From assembly GCF_014191545.1 (NCBI RefSeq), contig NZ_AP023361.1:1950501-2014500 (forward strand): a stretch of DNA of 64,000 nucleotides. The letters are read 5' to 3'. Below the pieces are notes generated by a model. The model saw only the letters and a program-made list of their open reading frames with translations, did no database searches and was not told the DNA's origin. Origin of the DNA: Terrihabitans soli. GTDB taxonomy: Bacteria; Pseudomonadota; Alphaproteobacteria; Rhizobiales; Methylopilaceae. Position numbers and translations under genes: made by a program. Positions 23,742 to 40,250 of this stretch are shown here, piece by piece; position 1 is the first letter of the stretch; every line of letters begins with the position of its first letter.

Positions 23742-24479
23742 TCAATTGAAATTGTACATGCAGGAAGCCTCGCCTGCGAATAAACGGCTGGCTTCGAGGT
23801 TCCTGAAACGGATAAGCGGCGGACACGAGTCTCCCGAGGCGAGAGCGACGGAGAACTCCTTATTGAAACACATCGAATACTGATGAATGCGAACCGGACC
23901 GTGCATCAGAGATTGTCTTGCCATCCTCGGCACCCAATCGAAATCGAGAGCGCCAAAGTCGAGGCCGACGCCCTCTCCGGCCCATTTCGCGTAAGCTTCC
24001 TTCATCGTCCAGAGCTTGACGAATTCACGCGTGCGGTGTTCCGGGGCGCATGTCTTGAGTTTTCTCTGGTCGGCCGACGACAGCGCCTCGAGCACGGGCT
24101 CGCCGTTTTCTCCATCGTTCAGGCATTCGAGATCGAGCCCGACATCCCCATTGGCGCAGACCGCCACACCGACGACATCTTCGGTATGGGCGATGCTGAT
24201 GCCGACATCCGGCAAAGGCCCTGTGATGCGCGGCTTGCCTTTCGCGTCGGGCAGTATGTGCCAAGCCGATCCGTCGATCTCGTATCCCGTCGCTTCCGAA
24301 AGAGTGATGCGGGCCAGAACGCGCCCGGTCAGAAAACGCGCGCGCGCCATCGGATGGTTGATCGCCGCGTAACGGCTGCGATCGTAGTCATCGAGCTGTG
24401 CGACAGCTCCGCCGCCAATGTCGGCGTTCAACACCCGGGCCAGGGAAATCAGCGTGATTGTGTTCGCAGCCAAATGCAT
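23742..24479 (-). CDS. Sfp-type 4'-phosphopantetheinyl transferase
   Basis: This 245-residue enzyme moves the 4'-phosphopantetheine arm of CoA onto a serine of a carrier domain. Motifs include GISIAHTEDVVGVAV, then DVGLDLE with the Mg ligands Asp116 and Glu118, then KLWTMKEAYAKWAGEG with Glu161 and the adjacent Lys. The N-terminal RARFLTGRVLARITLSEATG is also typical. It ends three bases before the aminotransferase's stop-proximal boundary on the same strand, so the two form an operon. Its most obvious client is Ser574 of the carrier domain of the divergent synthetase. Having a dedicated PPTase makes the locus self-contained. Confidence 0.93.
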   Translation of the reverse strand: MHLAANTITLISLARVLNADIGGGAVAQLDDYDRSRYAAINHPMARARFLTGRVLARITLSEATGYEIDGSAWHILPDAKGKPRITGPLPDVGISIAHTEDVVGVAVCANGDVGLDLECLNDGENGEPVLEALSSADQRKLKTCAPEHRTREFVKLWTMKEAYAKWAGEGVGLDFGALDFDWVPRMARQSLMHGPVRIHQYSMCFNKEFSVALASGDSCPPLIRFRNLEASRLFAGEASCMYNFN

Positions 24480-24482
24480 GGC

Positions 24483-25934
24483 TCAAGCGCTCAGTTGACC
24501 GTTTTGCCCGCGGCTCTTTTTGCCGGAAGCGCGCGTAACCGCCGCCTTCCCGGGCTTTACAATGCCGGTGCTCTTGCTGGCGCTTGCGCCAGTGCTGCGT
24601 GCGATGACGGCGATGCGTGCCGGCGCCGGATTGGCGGAAATCCCTTTCGGCGAACGCGCCTCGAAAGCCTTGGACACCCGGAAGACCGTCTCCGCGGCCT
24701 GCTCCAGAATATCGAGGCCTTCGTCCAGCTCCGCCTCGGGCGTCGTCAGCGGCATGAGGCACTTCAGAACTTCGTCATGCGGGCCGCAACGCTCGATGAT
24801 GAGGCCGTCGGCGAAGGCGCGCGCACCGATCTCGTCGGCTTTCGCAGGATCGACGCAGGTAATACCCCGCATCATCCCCCTGCCGCGCGTATCGCGGATA
24901 TGCGGGCCGAACCGTCCCTCCATCCTCTGAAGGCGGCGGCGCAGATGCTCTCCCTTGGCGGCGATCTCATCGGTGAATTTCGAGGTCTGCCAATAATGCT
25001 CGAGCGCGGCAGCGGCCGTGACGAAAGCGTGATTGTTGCCGCGGAACGTGCCGTTGTGCTCGCCCGGCTTCCACACGTCGAACTCACGCTTGATCAAGAC
25101 GACCGCCATCGGCAGGCCGTAGCCCGACAGGGATTTCGAGAGCGTCACGATATCGGGATGGATCCCCGCTTCTTCGAAGCTGAAGAAGGTGCCGGTGCGG
25201 CCGCACCCGGCCTGGATGTCATCGACGATGAAAAGAATGTCGCGGGCTTCGCACATCGCTTTCAGGCGCCGCAGCCACGGGGCGCGCGCAACGTTCAGCC
25301 CGCCTTCGCCCTGTACGCATTCGAGGATGACGGCCGCCGGAAGATCGACGCCGCTCGACGGATCGTCGAGCAGGCGCTCGATATACTGAACGGTATCGAT
25401 ATTGGCGCCCAGATAACCGTCATAGGGCATGACGGTCGTGCCCTGCAGCGGCACGCCGGAAGCTTTGCGATGATGCTTATTTCCGGTGGCGGCAAGCGCT
25501 CCGAGCGACACGCCGTGAAACCCGTTTGTGAAGGTGATGATGTTGGTGCGGCCGGTGATCTTGCGCGCCAGCTTCATCGCGGCCTCGACCGCATTCGTGC
25601 CGGTCGGCCCCGTGAACTGGATGACATAATCGAGTTTGCGCGGTTTCAGGATCGCGCACCACATCGCCTCAATAAACCGCTCTTTGGCGGCCGTATGCAG
25701 ATCAAGGCTGTGCGTGATGCCATCGCGCTCGATATACTTAATGAGCGCCGATTTCAGAACGGGATTGTTGTGCCCGTAATTGAGAGAGCCGGCCCCGGCG
25801 AGGAAGTCGAGATAGCGCCGCCCGTTGACGTCGACGAGTTCTGTGCCGCGGGCACGATCCAGCATGCAGGGAAAGTTGCGCGGATAAGACCGGACCTCCG
25901 ACTCGAGGAGGCTGAATGTGTTCTTCCTGAGCAT
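24483..25934 (-). CDS. L-2,4-diaminobutyrate:2-oxoglutarate aminotransferase (EctB/Dat type)
   Basis: This 483-residue PLP enzyme makes L-2,4-diaminobutyrate from aspartate semialdehyde and glutamate. The EctB-like opening SLLESEVRSYPRNFP, the substrate loop FTGPTGTNAVEAAMKLAR, the acid in FIVDDIQAGCGRTG and the Schiff-base Lys267 in VTLSKSLSGYG are all present. No ectA or ectC lies nearby, so ectoine is not the product. Residues from about 425 on form an unusual Ala/Ser/Lys/Arg-rich tail of about 55 residues, beyond the usual end of the family. Its divergent neighbour is a Pls-type synthetase, and together with the PPTase they imply diaminobutyrate as the monomer supplied. Confidence 0.93.
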   Translation of the reverse strand: MLRKNTFSLLESEVRSYPRNFPCMLDRARGTELVDVNGRRYLDFLAGAGSLNYGHNNPVLKSALIKYIERDGITHSLDLHTAAKERFIEAMWCAILKPRKLDYVIQFTGPTGTNAVEAAMKLARKITGRTNIITFTNGFHGVSLGALAATGNKHHRKASGVPLQGTTVMPYDGYLGANIDTVQYIERLLDDPSSGVDLPAAVILECVQGEGGLNVARAPWLRRLKAMCEARDILFIVDDIQAGCGRTGTFFSFEEAGIHPDIVTLSKSLSGYGLPMAVVLIKREFDVWKPGEHNGTFRGNNHAFVTAAAALEHYWQTSKFTDEIAAKGEHLRRRLQRMEGRFGPHIRDTRGRGMMRGITCVDPAKADEIGARAFADGLIIERCGPHDEVLKCLMPLTTPEAELDEGLDILEQAAETVFRVSKAFEARSPKGISANPAPARIAVIARSTGASASKSTGIVKPGKAAVTRASGKKSRGQNGQLSA

Positions 25935-26150
25935 GTGTGCCTACTCCGCAGACATTTCCTCATCCAAAGCGCCGAATCCCTATTATTTGCAGGGCTTTCT
26001 GCCGCCTCGTATCTGCCGCACCGAATGCTCTCGATTGCCGTTAACTAACAACAACCGCCTCAACTTGACTAAAGCTATACTTACGCCGCTACTCGCTTCA
26101 ACTAACAAGTTACCGATTAGTTAATACAGCTATCCCGGATTGAGGAACGT
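25935..26150. promoter_or_regulatory. Divergent control region of the polymer cluster
   Basis: These 216 bp separate the aminotransferase and synthetase starts and are AT-rich from about 26030. The nonamer AACTAACAA occurs at 26043-26051 and 26100-26108. TTAACTAA at 26041-26048 recurs inverted as TTAGTTAA at 26117-26124. Such repeats look like operator sites for a shared regulator. No regulator gene is in the cluster. The synthetase has a GAGGAA ribosome-binding site just before its GTG. Confidence 0.5.
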
Positions 26151-29100
26151 GTGAGCGATATTGGCGGCGTACTTACGTGCGACACGTACGACAATCGGAT
26201 TCGCTGGAAAAAGGGCGAAAGGCTGGACCGCGTCTTCGAGCAGAAATGCGACGAACTCACGGAAAAGCACGGCAAAAGCTTCCCTGCGGTTCTGCTTGAG
26301 AGTGGGCCGATTTCCTATGAAGAACTCGATGCGCGAGCCAACAGGCTAGCCCGCTACCTACGGAAACGCGGCCTCAAATCCGGCGCCCGTGTCGGCATCA
26401 TGCTCAAGCAGAGCGCCGAAACGTACATATCCATGCTGGCGGTCATGAAGCTGAACGCGGCCTATGTGCCGCTGGATGTCAGCTTCCCGCGCGATCGCAT
26501 CGCGATCATCACCGAAGACGCCGGTGTACGATTCATTATTTCTCTGGCGGAGAACAGCGGATCGTTTGAAGGCATCGGCCTTGAGACCGTGTATGTCGAT
26601 GAGGAGGCCGCGACAATCGCCCGGTGCTCGCCAAGGCGGCTGAGTACTGCGGAAAAGGGCCCGCCGCGCGAACAGCTCTGCTATGTCATCTATACCTCCG
26701 GCTCGACCGGCAAGCCGAAGGGCGTTGCCGTCGATCACCCGAGCATCTGCAACTTCGTCAAGGTCGCTGCTGAAGTTTATGGATATTGCGAAGGCGACCG
26801 CGTCTATCAGGGCATGACGATCGCTTTCGACTTCTCGGTCGAAGAGATCTGGGTGCCGCTTCTGGCAGGCGCGACGCTTGTTCCGGGCATCTCCAAAACG
26901 GCGCTTGCCGGCTGCGATCTCGCCGATTTTCTGGAAAAGAACCGCATCACCGCCATGTGCTGCGTACCGACGCTGCTGGCGACCATCAACCGCGATCTGC
27001 CCGATCTGAAACTGCTGCTTCTCAGCGGCGAGGCCTGTCCGCAGGATCTCGTTTCCCGCTGGTATAGACCCGGCCGAAAATTGCTGAATGTGTACGGACC
27101 GACGGAAGCGACCGTCACGGCCACCTGGACGGAGGTGCGCCCGGAAAAGCCGGTCACGATCGGCGTCCCGCTGCCGACCTATCAGATCCTTATTCTGGAA
27201 GAGAATGAGGAAAAGCTCGTGCCGCCGGGCGGAACCGGCGAGATCTGCATTGCCGGCATCGGCCTTGCGCGCGGCTATCTCAACCGCGAGGATCTGACCA
27301 CCAAGGCCTTCATTCCGGATTTTCTGAAACTCGAGAACAATCCCTCGAAACGTCTTTACCGCACAGGCGATCTTGGCCGCATTACCGATGACGGGGAGAT
27401 CGAATATTTCGGCCGCATCGACACCCAGGTTAAAATTCGCGGCTACCGGATCGAGCTGACGGAAATCGAGTCGGCCCTGATGGAAGTGCCCGAGATCGCA
27501 CAGGCCGTCGTCAATCCCTGGTCGGAAGATGGCGGTCCTCTCGAACTCGTCGCCTATTGCACGCTGCAGCCGGGCCATGCGCGCCTCGACAATGAGCGCG
27601 TCAGCGCACAGCTCAAGGCTCGCCTGCCCCGCTACATGATTCCGGCCTATATCGAAATCCTGCCGGAGATCCCGCTGCTGCCGAGCCACAAGGCCGACCG
27701 CAAAAAGCTGCCGCCGCCGTGCGGCCCGCGCTTTACCGCAACAAGCGCCGGGGATCATGTCGCCGCCGAGGGCGCAACCGAAACCCTGATTTCGGACGCG
27801 CTCGCCGGCCTGCTCGGCGTCGACAAAGTCTCGGTCGAAGACCACTTCTTCGACACGCTCGGCGCGCACTCTCTTCTGATGGCGCGCCTGTCGTCGGACA
27901 TCCGCACGCATCTTCCGGGCGCGACCGTCTCGATGCGCGATCTTTACCAGAACCCGACAGTCCGCCAGATCGCCGCGCTGATCGACGGGCAATCCTCGGC
28001 GCGCGTTCAGGCGCCGGCGGAAAACTTCGTGCACGCCAACGTGCCATCCGCGACGAATTATTATCTGTGCGGCGCGTTCCAACTCATTTTCTTCCTTGGC
28101 TTTATCTGGGCCAATCTCGAAATCGTCGTCTGGTCGTTCGATTTCATGCTGCAGTCCACCGACATCGTGGACATGTATCTGCGCGCCGTCGCTCTGAATG
28201 TCATGCTGTTCTTCGGTTATTCGGCGCTTCCGGTTGTGGCGAAATGGGTCGTCGTCGGAACCTGGAAGGAAGACACATTCCCGATCTGGGGCGCGAAATA
28301 TTTTCGCTTCTGGGTCGTCAAGACCCTGATGTCCTTCAATCCGATCCTGCTGTTCCGCTCGACGCCGCTCTTTAATCTTTACCTCCGGCTGCTCGGCGCC
28401 CGCATCGGCAAGAACGTCGTCATCCTGTCGCAGTCCTTCCCGCTCTGTACGGACCTGATCGATATCGGCGACGATACGGTTCTGCGCAATTATTCGATCC
28501 TCACCGGCTACCGCGCCCAGGCCGGCTATATCGATACCGGCCCGGTCACCATCGGCAAAGGCGCGGTCGTCGGCGAACACAGCATGGTCGATATCGGCGC
28601 AAGCCTGGGCGATGGCGGCCGCCTTGCCCATGCCTCGCTCCTGCCCGCCGGCGCCAGCATTCCCGAGGGCGCGACATTTCAGGGCTCGCCGGCCCGCCAG
28701 TGCCAGTCCCGGCCGGCCGAGGCCGAACCGCGCAAAATGACGGCGGTCCGCAAGACGCTCTATGTCGGCTTTCATCTCGGCTCGACGCTGTTCTGGGTGT
28801 TCCCGGTTCTGCCGCTCACCATCTATTTCTTCTTCCCCGAACTCTTCGGACAGAGCCTTGCGACGGTCGCTTCGCGGCTTCCGCAATTCTCGCCCGTGAT
28901 TTTCGGCATCATTCTCGCGGCAACTGCCGGCCTCATGGTGGCGCTTCTGATCGTTGCGCTCGTGCGCGTCTGGGCCATTCCGCGGCTTCTCAATCTTCTG
29001 CTGCGCGAGGGCGTCACCTACCCGCTTTACGGCCTGCGCTATTTCGCCTTCCGGATGATGACGGCGGCGAGCAATCTCGATTATTTCAACACGCTGTTCG

Positions 29101-30191
29101 GCGACAGCTCCTACATCGTTCATTATCTCAGGCTGATCGGCGTCGATCTGTCGACGGTCATTCAGACGGGCTCGAATTTCGGCTCGTTCCAGCGCTTCGA
29201 TTCGCCATTCCTCTGCAAAGTCGGCAGCGGCACCATGGTGTCGAGCACACTCCTGATGGTGAACGCGCAGTTCTCCTCGACCTCGTTCCGCCTCGAACGG
29301 TCGGCGATCGCGGAAAACAACTTCCTCGGCAATGTGATCCTCGTGCCGCCCGGCTCGCGCGCCGGTGACAACTGCCTGCTCGCAACCAAGCTCATGCTGC
29401 CGGTCGATGGCGGCGTGCGGGAGAACACCGGCCTTCTCGGCTCGCCGGTGTTTGAGATTCCGCGCAGCGTCGGGACGGATAAGAACTTTTCCGAAGAATT
29501 CACGCCGCAGGAGCGCGCGGCCCTGCTGAGGAAGAAAAACCGCAACAATATCGCCAGCATGGCACTTTTTCTGATGTCACACTGGATATTCGGCCTTGCC
29601 GCAATGGCCTCGCTCTACTGGACGCTGAAGCTGTTTCCCATTTACGGCATTGCGGCTTTGGCCGGCGCCACGCTGTGCCTTCTTGTTTTCTCTATCTTTT
29701 TCTTTGCGCTGATGGAGTGGTCGAGCCTCGGCTTCCGCAAACTGCGCCCCAATCGCTGCACGATCCTGCACAAAGATTACTGGCAGATCGAGCATCACTG
29801 GAAGATGTCGGAAAACTTCCTAACCTTCCTGTTCCGCGGCACACCGTTCAAAAATCTCATCAGCCGCCTGCTCGGCACAAAGACCGGCCGCATGGTTTAT
29901 GACGATGGTTGTGTGATGACGGAGCGAACTCTGGTCGAAGTCGGGGATTACTGCACCCTCAGTGAGTTCTCCATCGTCCAGGCGCATTCGATGGAAGACG
30001 GCATTTTCAAATCCGACATGATCCGCCTCGGCGCCGGGACGACGATCGGCACGAATTCGCTCGTCCATTACGGCGTGGCCACCGGCGAACAGGCGATTGT
30101 CGATTCCGACTGCTTCGTCATGAAGGGCGAGACGCTCGGTGAAAAGACGATCTGGCGCGGCAACCCCGCCATGCAGGTCTATCCGTCGTAA
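26151..30191 (+). CDS. Pls/PosA-family nonribosomal peptide synthetase (isopeptide polymer synthetase)
   Basis: This is a membrane-bound enzyme of 1346 residues. An adenylation domain covers about 40-520 (A3 YTSGSTGKPKG at 181-191; Asp227, Phe228 and Glu231 in the A4 pocket; A10 Lys514). A carrier domain with Ser574 in LGAHSLL follows. From about 640, pairs of membrane segments (640-700, 868-942, 1133-1190) alternate with three left-handed beta-helix-like domains (about 748-850, 990-1085, 1243-1343). There is no standard condensation (HHxxxDG) or thioesterase domain. This is the plan of epsilon-poly-lysine synthetase Pls, whose three C-terminal domains join a basic amino acid through its side-chain amine. 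The neighbouring aminotransferase suggests diaminobutyrate as monomer. Start GTG 26151. Confidence 0.92.
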   Translation: MSDIGGVLTCDTYDNRIRWKKGERLDRVFEQKCDELTEKHGKSFPAVLLESGPISYEELDARANRLARYLRKRGLKSGARVGIMLKQSAETYISMLAVMKLNAAYVPLDVSFPRDRIAIITEDAGVRFIISLAENSGSFEGIGLETVYVDEEAATIARCSPRRLSTAEKGPPREQLCYVIYTSGSTGKPKGVAVDHPSICNFVKVAAEVYGYCEGDRVYQGMTIAFDFSVEEIWVPLLAGATLVPGISKTALAGCDLADFLEKNRITAMCCVPTLLATINRDLPDLKLLLLSGEACPQDLVSRWYRPGRKLLNVYGPTEATVTATWTEVRPEKPVTIGVPLPTYQILILEENEEKLVPPGGTGEICIAGIGLARGYLNREDLTTKAFIPDFLKLENNPSKRLYRTGDLGRITDDGEIEYFGRIDTQVKIRGYRIELTEIESALMEVPEIAQAVVNPWSEDGGPLELVAYCTLQPGHARLDNERVSAQLKARLPRYMIPAYIEILPEIPLLPSHKADRKKLPPPCGPRFTATSAGDHVAAEGATETLISDALAGLLGVDKVSVEDHFFDTLGAHSLLMARLSSDIRTHLPGATVSMRDLYQNPTVRQIAALIDGQSSARVQAPAENFVHANVPSATNYYLCGAFQLIFFLGFIWANLEIVVWSFDFMLQSTDIVDMYLRAVALNVMLFFGYSALPVVAKWVVVGTWKEDTFPIWGAKYFRFWVVKTLMSFNPILLFRSTPLFNLYLRLLGARIGKNVVILSQSFPLCTDLIDIGDDTVLRNYSILTGYRAQAGYIDTGPVTIGKGAVVGEHSMVDIGASLGDGGRLAHASLLPAGASIPEGATFQGSPARQCQSRPAEAEPRKMTAVRKTLYVGFHLGSTLFWVFPVLPLTIYFFFPELFGQSLATVASRLPQFSPVIFGIILAATAGLMVALLIVALVRVWAIPRLLNLLLREGVTYPLYGLRYFAFRMMTAASNLDYFNTLFGDSSYIVHYLRLIGVDLSTVIQTGSNFGSFQRFDSPFLCKVGSGTMVSSTLLMVNAQFSSTSFRLERSAIAENNFLGNVILVPPGSRAGDNCLLATKLMLPVDGGVRENTGLLGSPVFEIPRSVGTDKNFSEEFTPQERAALLRKKNRNNIASMALFLMSHWIFGLAAMASLYWTLKLFPIYGIAALAGATLCLLVFSIFFFALMEWSSLGFRKLRPNRCTILHKDYWQIEHHWKMSENFLTFLFRGTPFKNLISRLLGTKTGRMVYDDGCVMTERTLVEVGDYCTLSEFSIVQAHSMEDGIFKSDMIRLGAGTTIGTNSLVHYGVATGEQAIVDSDCFVMKGETLGEKTIWRGNPAMQVYPS

Positions 30192-30210: not shown

Positions 30211-30306
30211 CCTCATGGTTCGAGACGCCGCTGCGCGGCTCCTCAGGATGAGGGACTGGCCCATCCTTCGAGACGGCCCGCTAAAGCGGACCTCCTCAGG
30301 ATGAGG
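30211..30306. repeat. Family A palindromic repeat pair
   Basis: Two adjacent copies of an imperfect palindrome that starts CCTCATGGTTCGAGACG or CCATCCTTCGAGACGG and ends CTCCTCAGGATGAGG. The units are at 30211-30253 and 30260-30306. The same family recurs at 30922, 37387, 39420 and 40093. It lies just after the synthetase stop. Confidence 0.85.
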
Positions 30307-30319
30307 CGGTAAGGCAGGC

Positions 30320-30921: not shown

Positions 30922-31018
30922 CCTCATCCTGAGGAGCCGCGCAGCGGCGTCTCGAAGGATGAGCGATGTGGCCCATCCTTCGAGACGGCCCGCTAAAGCA
31001 GGCCTCCTCAGGATGAGG
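30922..31018. repeat. Family A palindromic repeat pair (inverted arrangement)
   Basis: Units at 30922-30963 and 30969-31018 face each other: the first reads CCTCATCCTGAGGAG...CGAAGGATGAG and the second CCATCCTTCGAGACGG...CTCAGGATGAGG. They lie in a gene-free stretch, 30598-31154, in which I see nothing else except the double-hairpin module listed next. Confidence 0.85.
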
Positions 31019-31050
31019 CGGAGTTTGGCAGGTCCCCCTCACCTCGCTCG

Positions 31051-32773: not shown

Positions 32774-34243
32774 CTATGTCGTGAACTTTGAAACTAGATC
32801 TAGAATTTGGCCGCCGTACGTACCAATTTTATGAATCGCTTCTGCCGTATCCGCAGTACGTATCAAGTTGTTACTCAGAGCCTCCAACGCCTTACCTACT
32901 CCTTGGAGCTTCGTTGGACTCGGATCTTGAGTAGCCCCCTCAATTTCATCGATAACCCTACTTCTTGCTTCAGGGCTGCTTTCCAAAGCTTGCAGGGCAT
33001 CACGGGCTGCTGCGAGTACTTCTTTAGCCACTCCGATCTGTGCGGCAGACAAAACGTTTCCGGTATTACCGTAGCTGACGGCCGAGCCACCAAAGGCCAC
33101 CGCACTCGCTTGCAGCGTTCCTATTTGCAACGTCCCGATATGAACATCTTTGGTCATTGTGAAGAGGTCTCTTGCCAATACTTCTGCCTTACGCAGCTCC
33201 GGATAGAACTTGGTCCGAGCCGCCATCGCCAAAATCCTCCCGCGCGCGGGTGAATCTACCCCTGCGGCTTCGAAGATCTGACGGACAAGATTTTCATAAT
33301 CCTTAGAGTGGTCGATCTGGCGCACCATATGATCCACCGTAAGAGCGGACACTTCGGCGTTGGCCTCTTTCAAATGCCATTCTGTTACGACCTTATCCAG
33401 GTTGGCATAATAAGTATCTCGAAGCCCCGTCGCTAAGCCTATCCGGGCTTCATCCGAGTGATCTGCGGACCCTCTAAGCACCATTTCATGCCGACGTTTA
33501 CGGGGGCCGTTTTCGGAACCGAACAGCTGATAAACCCAAGCCCTAACGTTGGCCGGGCGTTCGTCCAGTCTTCTCAAATCGATCCCAATGTCTCTTGTAG
33601 AAAGCTTGGCATTCTCCACCACAGCCCAAACAGAGTATTGTGCAACGATGGAATCGTCGTGCTTCCCTAATGCTTTAACAATCGCGGAATTGCTATGCTT
33701 TGGGTGGAAGATGTTCTCCGGAGCTTTATCGAGCCCGACAGTTATCAAGGCAAGCTTGAGGATATCCGGAGAGGCGACATCAATATCGATCTTCGTACGT
33801 TTTAGATCGAGACTACTAGCCGAGGTATTTTGCAGCGCCGACAAAAGGATAAGATCCTGAGAGAACCTGTCCTTGTCGGTCAGGAGCTTGTAAGCACCTG
33901 GATTGTCCAGCTTAAAAAGCGCGGCGATCGCGGCACCGACTACATCGGCGTTATCAGAATAATTTTCCAACGCATCGAGAACGGCTCGTAAGCAGACATC
34001 CCGTCGCCCTATCCGAGCTATTGTGTTTAACGCCCAACGTTTAACCTTGTTATCGGCCGACGTTTGGATCAGTCCAACAACTGTATTTTCTATTCCAAAA
34101 AGGTCGGCGGCACTGAATCTTCCATCCCGCCGGTATAGTTCGCAAATGTACTGTAGCGCTCGTTTTGTTTGAAATGAGTCGCGGCTTTCAAGTTGATGCT
34201 TGAAGTACGAAACCTCAATATCTTCGATCACCCGAATAGCCAT
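32774..34243 (-). CDS. HEAT-like repeat protein of unknown function (second gene of a low-GC pair)
   Basis: The protein has 489 residues. I do not recognise a named family. Residues about 20-250 read as helical HEAT-like repeats (KVKRWALNTIARIGRRDVCL; DNADVVGAAIAALFKLDNPG; HDDSIVAQYSVWAVVENAKL). A Gly/Ala/Thr-rich stretch follows near 370-400 (IGTLQIGTLQASAVAFGGSA). The C-terminal end (VGKALEALSNNLIRTADTAE and GGQILDLVSKF) is amphipathic, like the C-termini of some membrane-acting or effector-associated bacterial immune proteins. Composition is far less GC-rich than its surroundings. It overlaps the upstream HARE-HTH gene by 29 bp, so the two are tightly coupled. Confidence 0.7.
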   Translation of the reverse strand: MAIRVIEDIEVSYFKHQLESRDSFQTKRALQYICELYRRDGRFSAADLFGIENTVVGLIQTSADNKVKRWALNTIARIGRRDVCLRAVLDALENYSDNADVVGAAIAALFKLDNPGAYKLLTDKDRFSQDLILLSALQNTSASSLDLKRTKIDIDVASPDILKLALITVGLDKAPENIFHPKHSNSAIVKALGKHDDSIVAQYSVWAVVENAKLSTRDIGIDLRRLDERPANVRAWVYQLFGSENGPRKRRHEMVLRGSADHSDEARIGLATGLRDTYYANLDKVVTEWHLKEANAEVSALTVDHMVRQIDHSKDYENLVRQIFEAAGVDSPARGRILAMAARTKFYPELRKAEVLARDLFTMTKDVHIGTLQIGTLQASAVAFGGSAVSYGNTGNVLSAAQIGVAKEVLAAARDALQALESSPEARSRVIDEIEGATQDPSPTKLQGVGKALEALSNNLIRTADTAEAIHKIGTYGGQILDLVSKFTT

Positions 34244-35159
34244 CAGAAATCAGCGGCACTCCCGCGCGCCGCAATTCGTAGTGAGATTGAAGAATCTTCT
34301 GCGACCACGGGTCGAAGTCGTCCAAGTCGTTGGGAACGGATGACAAATCCAGCCACTGCAGATTATTAAGAGACAACCGATGCTTGGTCGGCTCGTACCA
34401 ATCGGGGCAATCAAATAGCACAACTGCAAGAAGAGTGTCATGGGAGTATTTTCCAGACACCCAAAGAAAAAACTTCAAAACAGCGCGCCGAAGACCGCGT
34501 TCGTTGTCTTCAGGAAAATCGAGATCGATCACGGCAGCCTCAATTCCACTTTCGAGAATACCCGAGCTGCCGCCGTCGAATAACGTTCTGTGGTGTTGCT
34601 GCACTAAATTTATGAAGCCTATAGTTCTCTTGTTTGTGAACTCATCTCGGTCATCTCGATACCGTCCACTTCTATACGAGAGCACGCAGTTGTCTCGACG
34701 AACAACGGTGAAAGACCATATGGGAGCAGAATCTTCTTCCAGTTCTCTTTGATTCTCGTAACTGAATTTCGCTGAGTGCTTGAGCACGTCATGGATCTGA
34801 ATCGGTTCATTGTTACGAGCGAAAATTCTCTTAGAAGCCGTAAGCACTTTGCCCTTGAGTAAATCTCGGGTCCGCCGACGAGCGATCATCGGTGTCCGAT
34901 GCCTGATCGGGATATCCTTGTTGTCAAGAAAACGGCGAAGGAAAAACTGACCGGGCGCGGTACGAAAAAATAGGCTCTTCTCGCGACGTTCAAGGATGTC
35001 TTCGCTTAGACGCGCTTGAAGCGTCTTATGCTGAGTTTGGCCATGTAAATGATGAGGAACTATACCTGTAGCGTAAGCTTGGCGAAGAATCGCGCGCGCG
35101 CTCATAGGGCGACGCTCGTCAGAAAGTATCTTCTCCGCAATCTCTAGATACTGGTTCAT
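34215..35159 (-). CDS. HARE-HTH-like protein of unknown function (first gene of a low-GC pair)
   Basis: The protein has 314 residues. The N-terminal 80 (ILSDERRPMSARAILRQAYA; LHGQTQHKTLQARLSEDILE; FFRTAPGQFFLR) fit the HARE-HTH winged helix found in restriction endonucleases, RNA polymerase delta and chromatin proteins, which is thought to recognise modified or particular DNA. The remainder (about 120-314) has a NUDIX-like or unassigned alpha/beta appearance and is not recognised. Composition is AT-rich relative to the chromosome, indicating transfer. The likely promoter is the AT-rich stretch just upstream (TTTTATAAC near 35172-35180). Confidence 0.7.
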   Translation of the reverse strand: MNQYLEIAEKILSDERRPMSARAILRQAYATGIVPHHLHGQTQHKTLQARLSEDILERREKSLFFRTAPGQFFLRRFLDNKDIPIRHRTPMIARRRTRDLLKGKVLTASKRIFARNNEPIQIHDVLKHSAKFSYENQRELEEDSAPIWSFTVVRRDNCVLSYRSGRYRDDRDEFTNKRTIGFINLVQQHHRTLFDGGSSGILESGIEAAVIDLDFPEDNERGLRRAVLKFFLWVSGKYSHDTLLAVVLFDCPDWYEPTKHRLSLNNLQWLDLSSVPNDLDDFDPWSQKILQSHYELRRAGVPLISDGYSGDRRY

Positions 35160-37386: not shown

Positions 37387-37488
37387 CCTCATCCTGAGGA
37401 GCGAGGCAGAGCCTCGCGTCTCGAAGGATGGGCAGCGGAGTGTGGCCCATGGTTCGAGACGCGCCTTACGGCGCTCCTCACCATGAGG
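37387..37488. repeat. Family A palindromic repeat pair
   Basis: Units at 37387-37432 (CCTCATCCTGAGGAGCG to CTCGAAGGATGGG) and 37446-37488 (CCCATGGTTCGAGACGC to CTCACCATGAGG). The two central loops have different short palindromes (GCGAGGCAGAGCCTCGC and GCGCCTTACGGCGC). The pair lies between the 3' ends of the convergent exported-protein and phosphoesterase genes. Confidence 0.85.
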
Positions 37489-39419: not shown

Positions 39420-39582
39420 CCTCATGGTGAGGAGCGGAGCGCAGCTCCGCGTCTTGAACCATGGGCCACACATTGTCGCCCATCCTTCGAGACGGCCCAC
39501 TCAAGTCGGCTTTGCCGACTTGAGCCATAAGGATTGCCGAAGTCGGGTAGACCCGACTTCGGTGCGCCTCCTCAGGATGAGG
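39420..39582. repeat. Family A repeat pair carrying a double-hairpin insertion
   Basis: The first unit 39420-39465 is ordinary. The second, CCATCCTTCGAGACGG...CTCCTCAGGATGAGG at 39479-39582, is interrupted in its central loop by a module at 39500-39562: CTCAAGTCGGC/GCCGACTTGAG then CCGAAGTCGGG/CCCGACTTCGG. The inserted block is bounded by CACTCAAG and CTTCGGTG. Confidence 0.85.
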
Positions 39583-40092: not shown

Positions 40093-40250
40093 CCTCATGG
40101 TGAGGAGCGCAGCAAAGCTGCGCGTCTCGAACCATGGGCCAAAGATGCTGCCCATCCTTCGAGACGGCGCACTCAAGTCGGCTGTTGCCGACTTGAGCTC
40201 AAAGTGCCGAAGTCGGGTAGACCCGACTTCGGTGCCTCCTCAGGATGAGG
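40093..40250. repeat. Family A repeat pair carrying a double-hairpin insertion
   Basis: An ordinary unit at 40093-40139 is followed by a second unit at 40151-40250 interrupted by a double-hairpin module: CTCAAGTCGGC/GCCGACTTGAG at 40172-40197 and CCGAAGTCGGG/CCCGACTTCGG at 40207-40232. The module boundaries are the same as at 39500. The repeat ends 3 bp before the slyX stop. Confidence 0.85.

Follow-up and report, generated by a model that had tools for sequence, protein, structure and literature searches.

The genome of Terrihabitans soli, an alphaproteobacterium of the order Rhizobiales, raises a question at positions 23742-30191 of the 64,000-nucleotide (nt) stretch analysed here (contig NZ_AP023361.1, positions 1,950,501 to 2,014,500; hereafter the window): what does a synthetase of the Pls/PosA family make when a diaminobutyrate transaminase gene and a phosphopantetheinyl transferase gene lie beside it? 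Our analysis suggests that the locus directs, at the inner membrane, the gamma-linked polymerisation of L-2,4-diaminobutyrate (Dab) into a homopolymer or oligomer, with a probability of roughly 0.78. This reading rests on domain architecture, intact motifs, the adenylation pocket code, gene linkage, and the lack of ectoine genes and of an SbnB-like enzyme in the genome; from these we infer Dab as the actual substrate, its L configuration, the gamma linkage, the polymer length, export and role. Three intact genes fill the interval, with open-reading frames (ORFs) exactly as the original prediction described them, namely a two-gene operon divergent from a gene for a 1346-residue synthetase:

26151..30191, + strand: Pls/PosA-family single-module synthetase, with an adenylation (A) domain, a carrier (T) domain and three transmembrane (TM) hairpin/beta-helix units (TIGR02353, TIGR01733, PF00550, intact motifs)
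24483..25934, - strand: EctB-type L-2,4-diaminobutyrate:2-oxoglutarate transaminase (DAT), predicted to supply the monomer (TIGR02407, PRK09264, Lys267 motif)
23742..24479, - strand: 4'-phosphopantetheinyl transferase (PPTase), predicted to prime the carrier (PF01648, motifs GLDLE and KLWTMKEAYAKW)
25935..26150, no strand: divergent intergenic region of 216 nt (49% GC against 62% for the window)

The synthetase begins at a GTG codon, and its residues 640-1340 match TIGR02353, the Pls/PosA terminal domain, with 617.6 bits against a cut-off of 423.1. By this sequence measure its place in the Pls/PosA family cannot be a product of chance, given a margin of about 190 bits over a curated cut-off and the intact motifs. 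The adenylation domain scores 421 bits with TIGR01733, motifs A3, A5, A7, A8 and A10 are intact, and Pfam returns AMP-binding, AMP-binding_C and PP-binding only, with no condensation or thioesterase domain. The carrier site proposed earlier, Ser574, sits within the carrier motif LGAHSL. The protein divides as follows:

26277..27710, + strand: adenylation domain, residues 43-520 (profile matches; pocket by GrsA numbering)
27789..27983, + strand: peptidyl carrier domain, residues 547-611 (PF00550; phosphopantetheine site Ser574)
28023..30188, + strand: predicted membrane polymerisation domain (AlphaFold2 model, PDB matches, internal DNA repeats D1 and D3)

Hydropathy places six hydrophobic regions in the synthetase, arranged as three pairs. 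An AlphaFold2 model of residues 625-1346, built from 37 sequences, has a mean predicted local distance difference test score of 89.2 and a predicted template modelling score of 0.89; in this model, each of three repeats consists of two transmembrane helices and, after them, a left-handed beta-helix. The three repeats are also visible in the DNA, in copies about 740 nt apart. The best matches among solved structures are hexapeptide acetyltransferases (for example maltose/galactoside O-acetyltransferases and Vat enzymes), the top PDB match reaching Z 7.8 over about 150 residues, which indicates a common fold, not a common function; a search of viral structures returned generic acetyltransferase folds only. 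Hydropathy, model and fold matches all agree with the Pls/PosA pattern, three pairs of transmembrane helices set around three acetyltransferase-like domains, and the published PosA model has the same membrane/beta-helix architecture (PMC10522769). The earlier description of this enzyme as a Pls/PosA-type synthetase that dispenses with standard condensation and thioesterase domains therefore stands on the TIGR02353 score, the Pfam result and the six hydrophobic regions. His827, His1279 and His1306 are invariant in the 37 sequences and are candidate catalytic residues.

Aligned to GrsA, the pocket of the synthetase reads DFECLSVVTK. Position 2 of the pocket is Phe in synthetases of poly-Dab and of poly-2,3-diaminopropionate (poly-Dap), Met in the ornithine enzyme PosA and Ala in lysine enzymes (PMC10522769), and the window code has the Asp, Phe and Glu at positions 1 to 3 that mark gamma-poly-Dab pockets in the same study. 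A synthetase from Amycolatopsis (L101) has the same ten pocket residues. In our tree, the window synthetase belongs to a fully supported clade of DFE and DYE pockets; ornithine-type relatives (L039 and L040, DMEHNGTVTK) fall outside it, as does a beta-lysine-like relative (DGESVSVVNK). We rejected lysine and ornithine as substrates, the pocket being unlike the DMEHNG ornithine type and lacking the Ala of lysine enzymes. Where the pocket code does not separate Dab from Dap, gene context does.

The DAT, a protein of 483 residues, scores above the cut-offs of both TIGR02407 (640.9 bits against 552) and PRK09264 (658.8 bits against 438), and its catalytic Lys267 motif is intact, in agreement with its earlier assignment. 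It is the sole gene above the EctB cut-off in the genome. Neither ectA nor ectC has a match over cut-off in the genome, while four ectoine-operon relatives were positive in the same searches; these four ectB genes, from the same order, have both ectA and ectC adjoining. An ectoine role for the DAT is ruled out in this genome, which lacks ectA and ectC. The genome has one DapF-type gene only, at 0.18 Mb, with the cluster at 1.98 Mb; a second one, which might have served as a Dab racemase, is absent, and none is translationally coupled to the synthetase. A D-polymer of the PddA/PddB kind was rejected for want of a dedicated racemase, and the single dapF points to L-Dab.

A tree of 20 DAT proteins places the window DAT apart from ectoine EctBs, in a clade made up of synthetase-linked DATs only, from several families and a planctomycete (support 99/98). 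A tree constrained to hold every synthetase-linked DAT in a single clade is rejected (approximately unbiased test, p = 0.001), and so is one that unites only the non-actinobacterial DATs (p = 8e-5). The window enzyme is of the TIGR02407 type and that of Amycolatopsis L101 of the TIGR00709/PRK06938 type. Judged from these trees and profiles, DATs have joined Pls/PosA synthetases more than once. The repeated recruitment of different enzymes for the same reaction is strong circumstantial evidence for Dab as the substrate.

Members of the TIGR02353 family occur patchily over cut-off, in 15 of 101 relative genomes and 10 of 385 class-level genomes. We read the neighbourhoods of 77 full-length synthetases, scoring DAT within the flanks examined. 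A DAT adjoins 14 of them, the window's included, and every one of the 14 combines Ser at pocket position 301 (Ser301) with a Phe or Tyr residue at 236; a DAT neighbour is absent from all 59 synthetases that lack Ser301. Four of the 77 have Ser301 and no DAT, one of these being of the beta-lysine-like type. The adjacency recurs in many families and phyla. It takes the form of a co-directional DAT-synthetase-PPTase operon in the alphaproteobacterial L042, L043 and L096 (gaps of 108/0, -7/-4 and 147/15 nt, with overlaps in L043), while the same-genus relative L037 keeps the divergent layout of the window. In Amycolatopsis L101 the order is aspartate kinase, synthetase, DAT (ask-pls-dat), which matches the published gamma-poly-Dab contexts of pldA/pddA, dat and ask (PMC8117764). 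The expectation that the aminotransferase is conserved beside homologues holds for the 14 and fails for a large rhizobial sister clade, whose pocket has Gly for Ser at 301.

Several loci in this survey deserve mention in their own right. On Skermanella plasmids (L150:10095-13640 and L151:10018-14154) a DAT-synthetase pair is followed by a small uncharacterised protein, an S41 peptidase and a porin, genes with a possible role in outer-membrane exit or processing. In a member of the Thiotrichaceae, DAT and synthetase are separated by a 360-residue ORF (L118:1354-2436) that has an apparent signal peptide, a barrel-like sequence and no match in Pfam. ORFs of about 800-950 residues from Streptomyces and other actinomycetes (L085, L087, L090, L100, L106-L110, L112, L115 and others) carry the terminal half of Pls and lack an adenylation domain. 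At L041:9102-12452 the Pls terminal domain follows a run of several carrier domains in tandem, and a separate ORF close by encodes an A domain; at L162:6090-16001 it lies inside an ORF of more than 3300 residues.

Some results weigh against the poly-Dab reading. The A domain of a poly-Dap enzyme is also weakly active on Dab (PMC4668381), so the pocket code alone cannot separate the two substrates. We found no assay of any enzyme with the exact DFECLSVVTK pocket in the accessible literature, and a literature search with that string gave zero matches. Two actinobacterial synthetases with the identical code (L097 and L152) have no DAT within the flanks examined. The link between Ser301 and DAT is a correlation across related sequences with few independent events (about three contrasts), and the Fisher value for these counts is no measure of its strength; an independent-pairs test, which has low power, yields three pairs and p = 0.5. 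Finally, neither an exporter nor an immunity gene is apparent, nor a path through the outer membrane.

This last point also bears on an alternative in which the product is based on Dab without being a free homopolymer, namely an oligomer of few units, a chain that is capped or of mixed composition, or a surface polycation held in the envelope. PosA yielded only 7-12-mers in vitro (PMC10522769), Pls enzymes can terminate chains on alcohols such as glycerol (PMC9606270), and S41 peptidase and porin genes adjoin some relatives. Nevertheless, the window cluster has no tailoring enzyme and the characterised relatives in the literature consulted make homopolymers, and we consider such a product unlikely. 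Alternatively, the synthetase could polymerise L-2,3-diaminopropionate, the adjoining transaminase having some other purpose. Dap requires a cysteine-synthase/ornithine-cyclodeaminase pair (PMC4668381); the genome has zero TIGR03944 matches and so no SbnB-like enzyme, the SbnA-like partner not having been searched for, and a DAT adjoins 14 synthetases of the same pocket type. Poly-Dap is thereby disfavoured, and we hold it to be highly improbable. That the DAT is an enzyme of ectoine or another osmolyte, placed by accident beside a synthetase that uses lysine or ornithine, is scarcely credible: its score exceeds the EctB equivalog cut-off, but the genome has no ectA or ectC, the adjacency recurs across families and phyla, and the pocket resembles neither the ornithine type (L039, L040) nor the lysine type.

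Under the preferred reading, a gamma-linked L-Dab product, the DAT would turn aspartate-4-semialdehyde and glutamate into L-Dab, and the PPTase would place phosphopantetheine on Ser574. The A domain would then activate Dab and load the carrier. The membrane domain, in which one chain is predicted to form a pseudo-trimer of beta-helix acyltransferase folds next to six membrane helices, would join carrier-bound Dab to the growing chain via the side-chain amine, and probably carries the product across the inner membrane. The prediction of Dab had been made from the locus alone; the Dab/Dap-type pocket, the recurrence of DAT adjacency in relatives of the same pocket type and the missing ectoine and diaminopropionate genes all support it.

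The PPTase has 245 residues, scores 42.6 bits with PF01648 and carries the motifs GLDLE and KLWTMKEAYAKW. It is the probable activator of Ser574, because the genome has only two PPTase loci, the second of a size that would fit AcpS, and because just three carrier domains exceed the cut-off: those of the synthetase, of one large fused protein and of an AcpP-like protein encoded in a cluster of fatty-acid genes. Among proteins elsewhere in the genome, L173 (868 residues) has a carrier and a membrane part in addition to an N-terminal region resembling a ligase, and may need the PPTase too. An exclusive pairing of PPTase and synthetase was accordingly not supported. The cluster had been called self-contained, which goes too far: the lysine pathway provides the aspartate-semialdehyde, neither an exporter nor an immunity gene is apparent, and the PPTase may be shared with that other carrier protein.

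DAT and PPTase lie in that order on one strand, 3 nt apart, as a two-gene operon, and a gap of 216 nt separates this operon from the divergent synthetase gene. Within the gap are inverted TTAACTAA / TTAGTTAA boxes, absent from L037, which may form a regulator site; no sigma-70-like promoter site scored there. A regulatory motif common to the divergent promoters of the window and its same-genus relative was rejected, the two having zero 9-mers in common. The GC content of the cluster genes, overall and at third codon positions, is near that of adjoining genes, with the PPTase somewhat lower, so a recent foreign origin is not indicated. Elsewhere in the window, a palindromic repeat with core CATCCTTCGAGACG is interspersed at 30212-30309, 30922-31021, 37417-37461, 39481-39494 and 40123-40166 (10 matches against about 1 expected). 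At 32774-35159, two adjoining genes, for a HEAT-repeat protein and a HARE-HTH domain protein, overlap where they meet and possibly form a two-gene system.

Cationic isopeptide polymers were known from actinomycetes only before poly-ornithine was described in Acinetobacter (PMC10522769). Actinobacteria are known to have the synthetase family, its pairing with dat and the polymer poly-Dab (PMC8117764, PMC8225329, PMC10522769), and the family has already been found widely by sequence (PMC10522769). Predicted clusters for non-alpha poly-amino acids have been reported from nearly every Methylobacterium genome (PMC8561711), and NCBI annotation names ectB beside a Pls/PosA synthetase on Skermanella plasmids. 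In light of the published pldA/pddA-dat clusters, these named homologues and the Methylobacterium surveys, the system is better known than the phrase "little-described" had implied. In the literature searched, which most subscription papers lay outside, we found no report of a proteobacterium whose poly-Dab had been shown chemically. If our reading is right, an alphaproteobacterium that makes poly-Dab, and itself supplies the monomer and activates the carrier from the same cluster, would give a compact and testable Gram-negative example, and a Ser301 pocket with a neighbouring DAT could serve as a genomic rule for predicting Dab polymers. One could envision, tentatively and at less than even odds, that poly-Dab synthesis is widespread among bacteria and has been put together several times over, with EctB-type and TIGR00709-type DATs recruited independently beside Ser301-pocket synthetases in alphaproteobacteria, gammaproteobacteria, a planctomycete and actinobacteria, and that the role of the Gram-negative product differs from streptomycete antibiosis.

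Among known systems, PldA (Streptomyces) and PddA (Streptoalloteichus hindustanus) have the same Pls architecture and, as at the window locus, a diaminobutyrate transaminase in the cluster. Unlike these systems, the window cluster lacks an aspartate kinase and a PddB-type racemase, includes a PPTase, and has a DAT of the EctB type (TIGR02407) in place of the TIGR00709/PRK06938 type of the actinobacterial locus. PosA, the delta-poly-L-ornithine synthetase of Acinetobacter baumannii, is likewise a Gram-negative Pls-family enzyme with the A-T-membrane/beta-helix plan; its pocket is of the ornithine kind (DMEHNGTVSK against DFECLSVVTK in the window) and posA is a single-gene operon. Pls of Streptomyces albulus, which makes epsilon-poly-L-lysine, is the founding member of the architecture seen here; its pocket is of the lysine type, with Ala at position 2, and its neighbour is the peptidase pldII where the window has DAT and PPTase. 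Finally, the rhizobial DFEALGTVTK clade (Mesorhizobium, Rhizobium, Phyllobacterium, Shinella and Ochrobactrum; L059, L061, L089, L054, L153 and others) is up to 48% identical to the window synthetase. An Sfp-type PPTase and/or a GNAT acetyltransferase lies directly downstream in the checked loci. The PPTase, found in several, is a likeness to the window; the acetyltransferase, also in several, the lack of a nearby DAT and the Gly in place of Ser at 301 set the clade apart and make it a clean contrast for working out what that clade produces.
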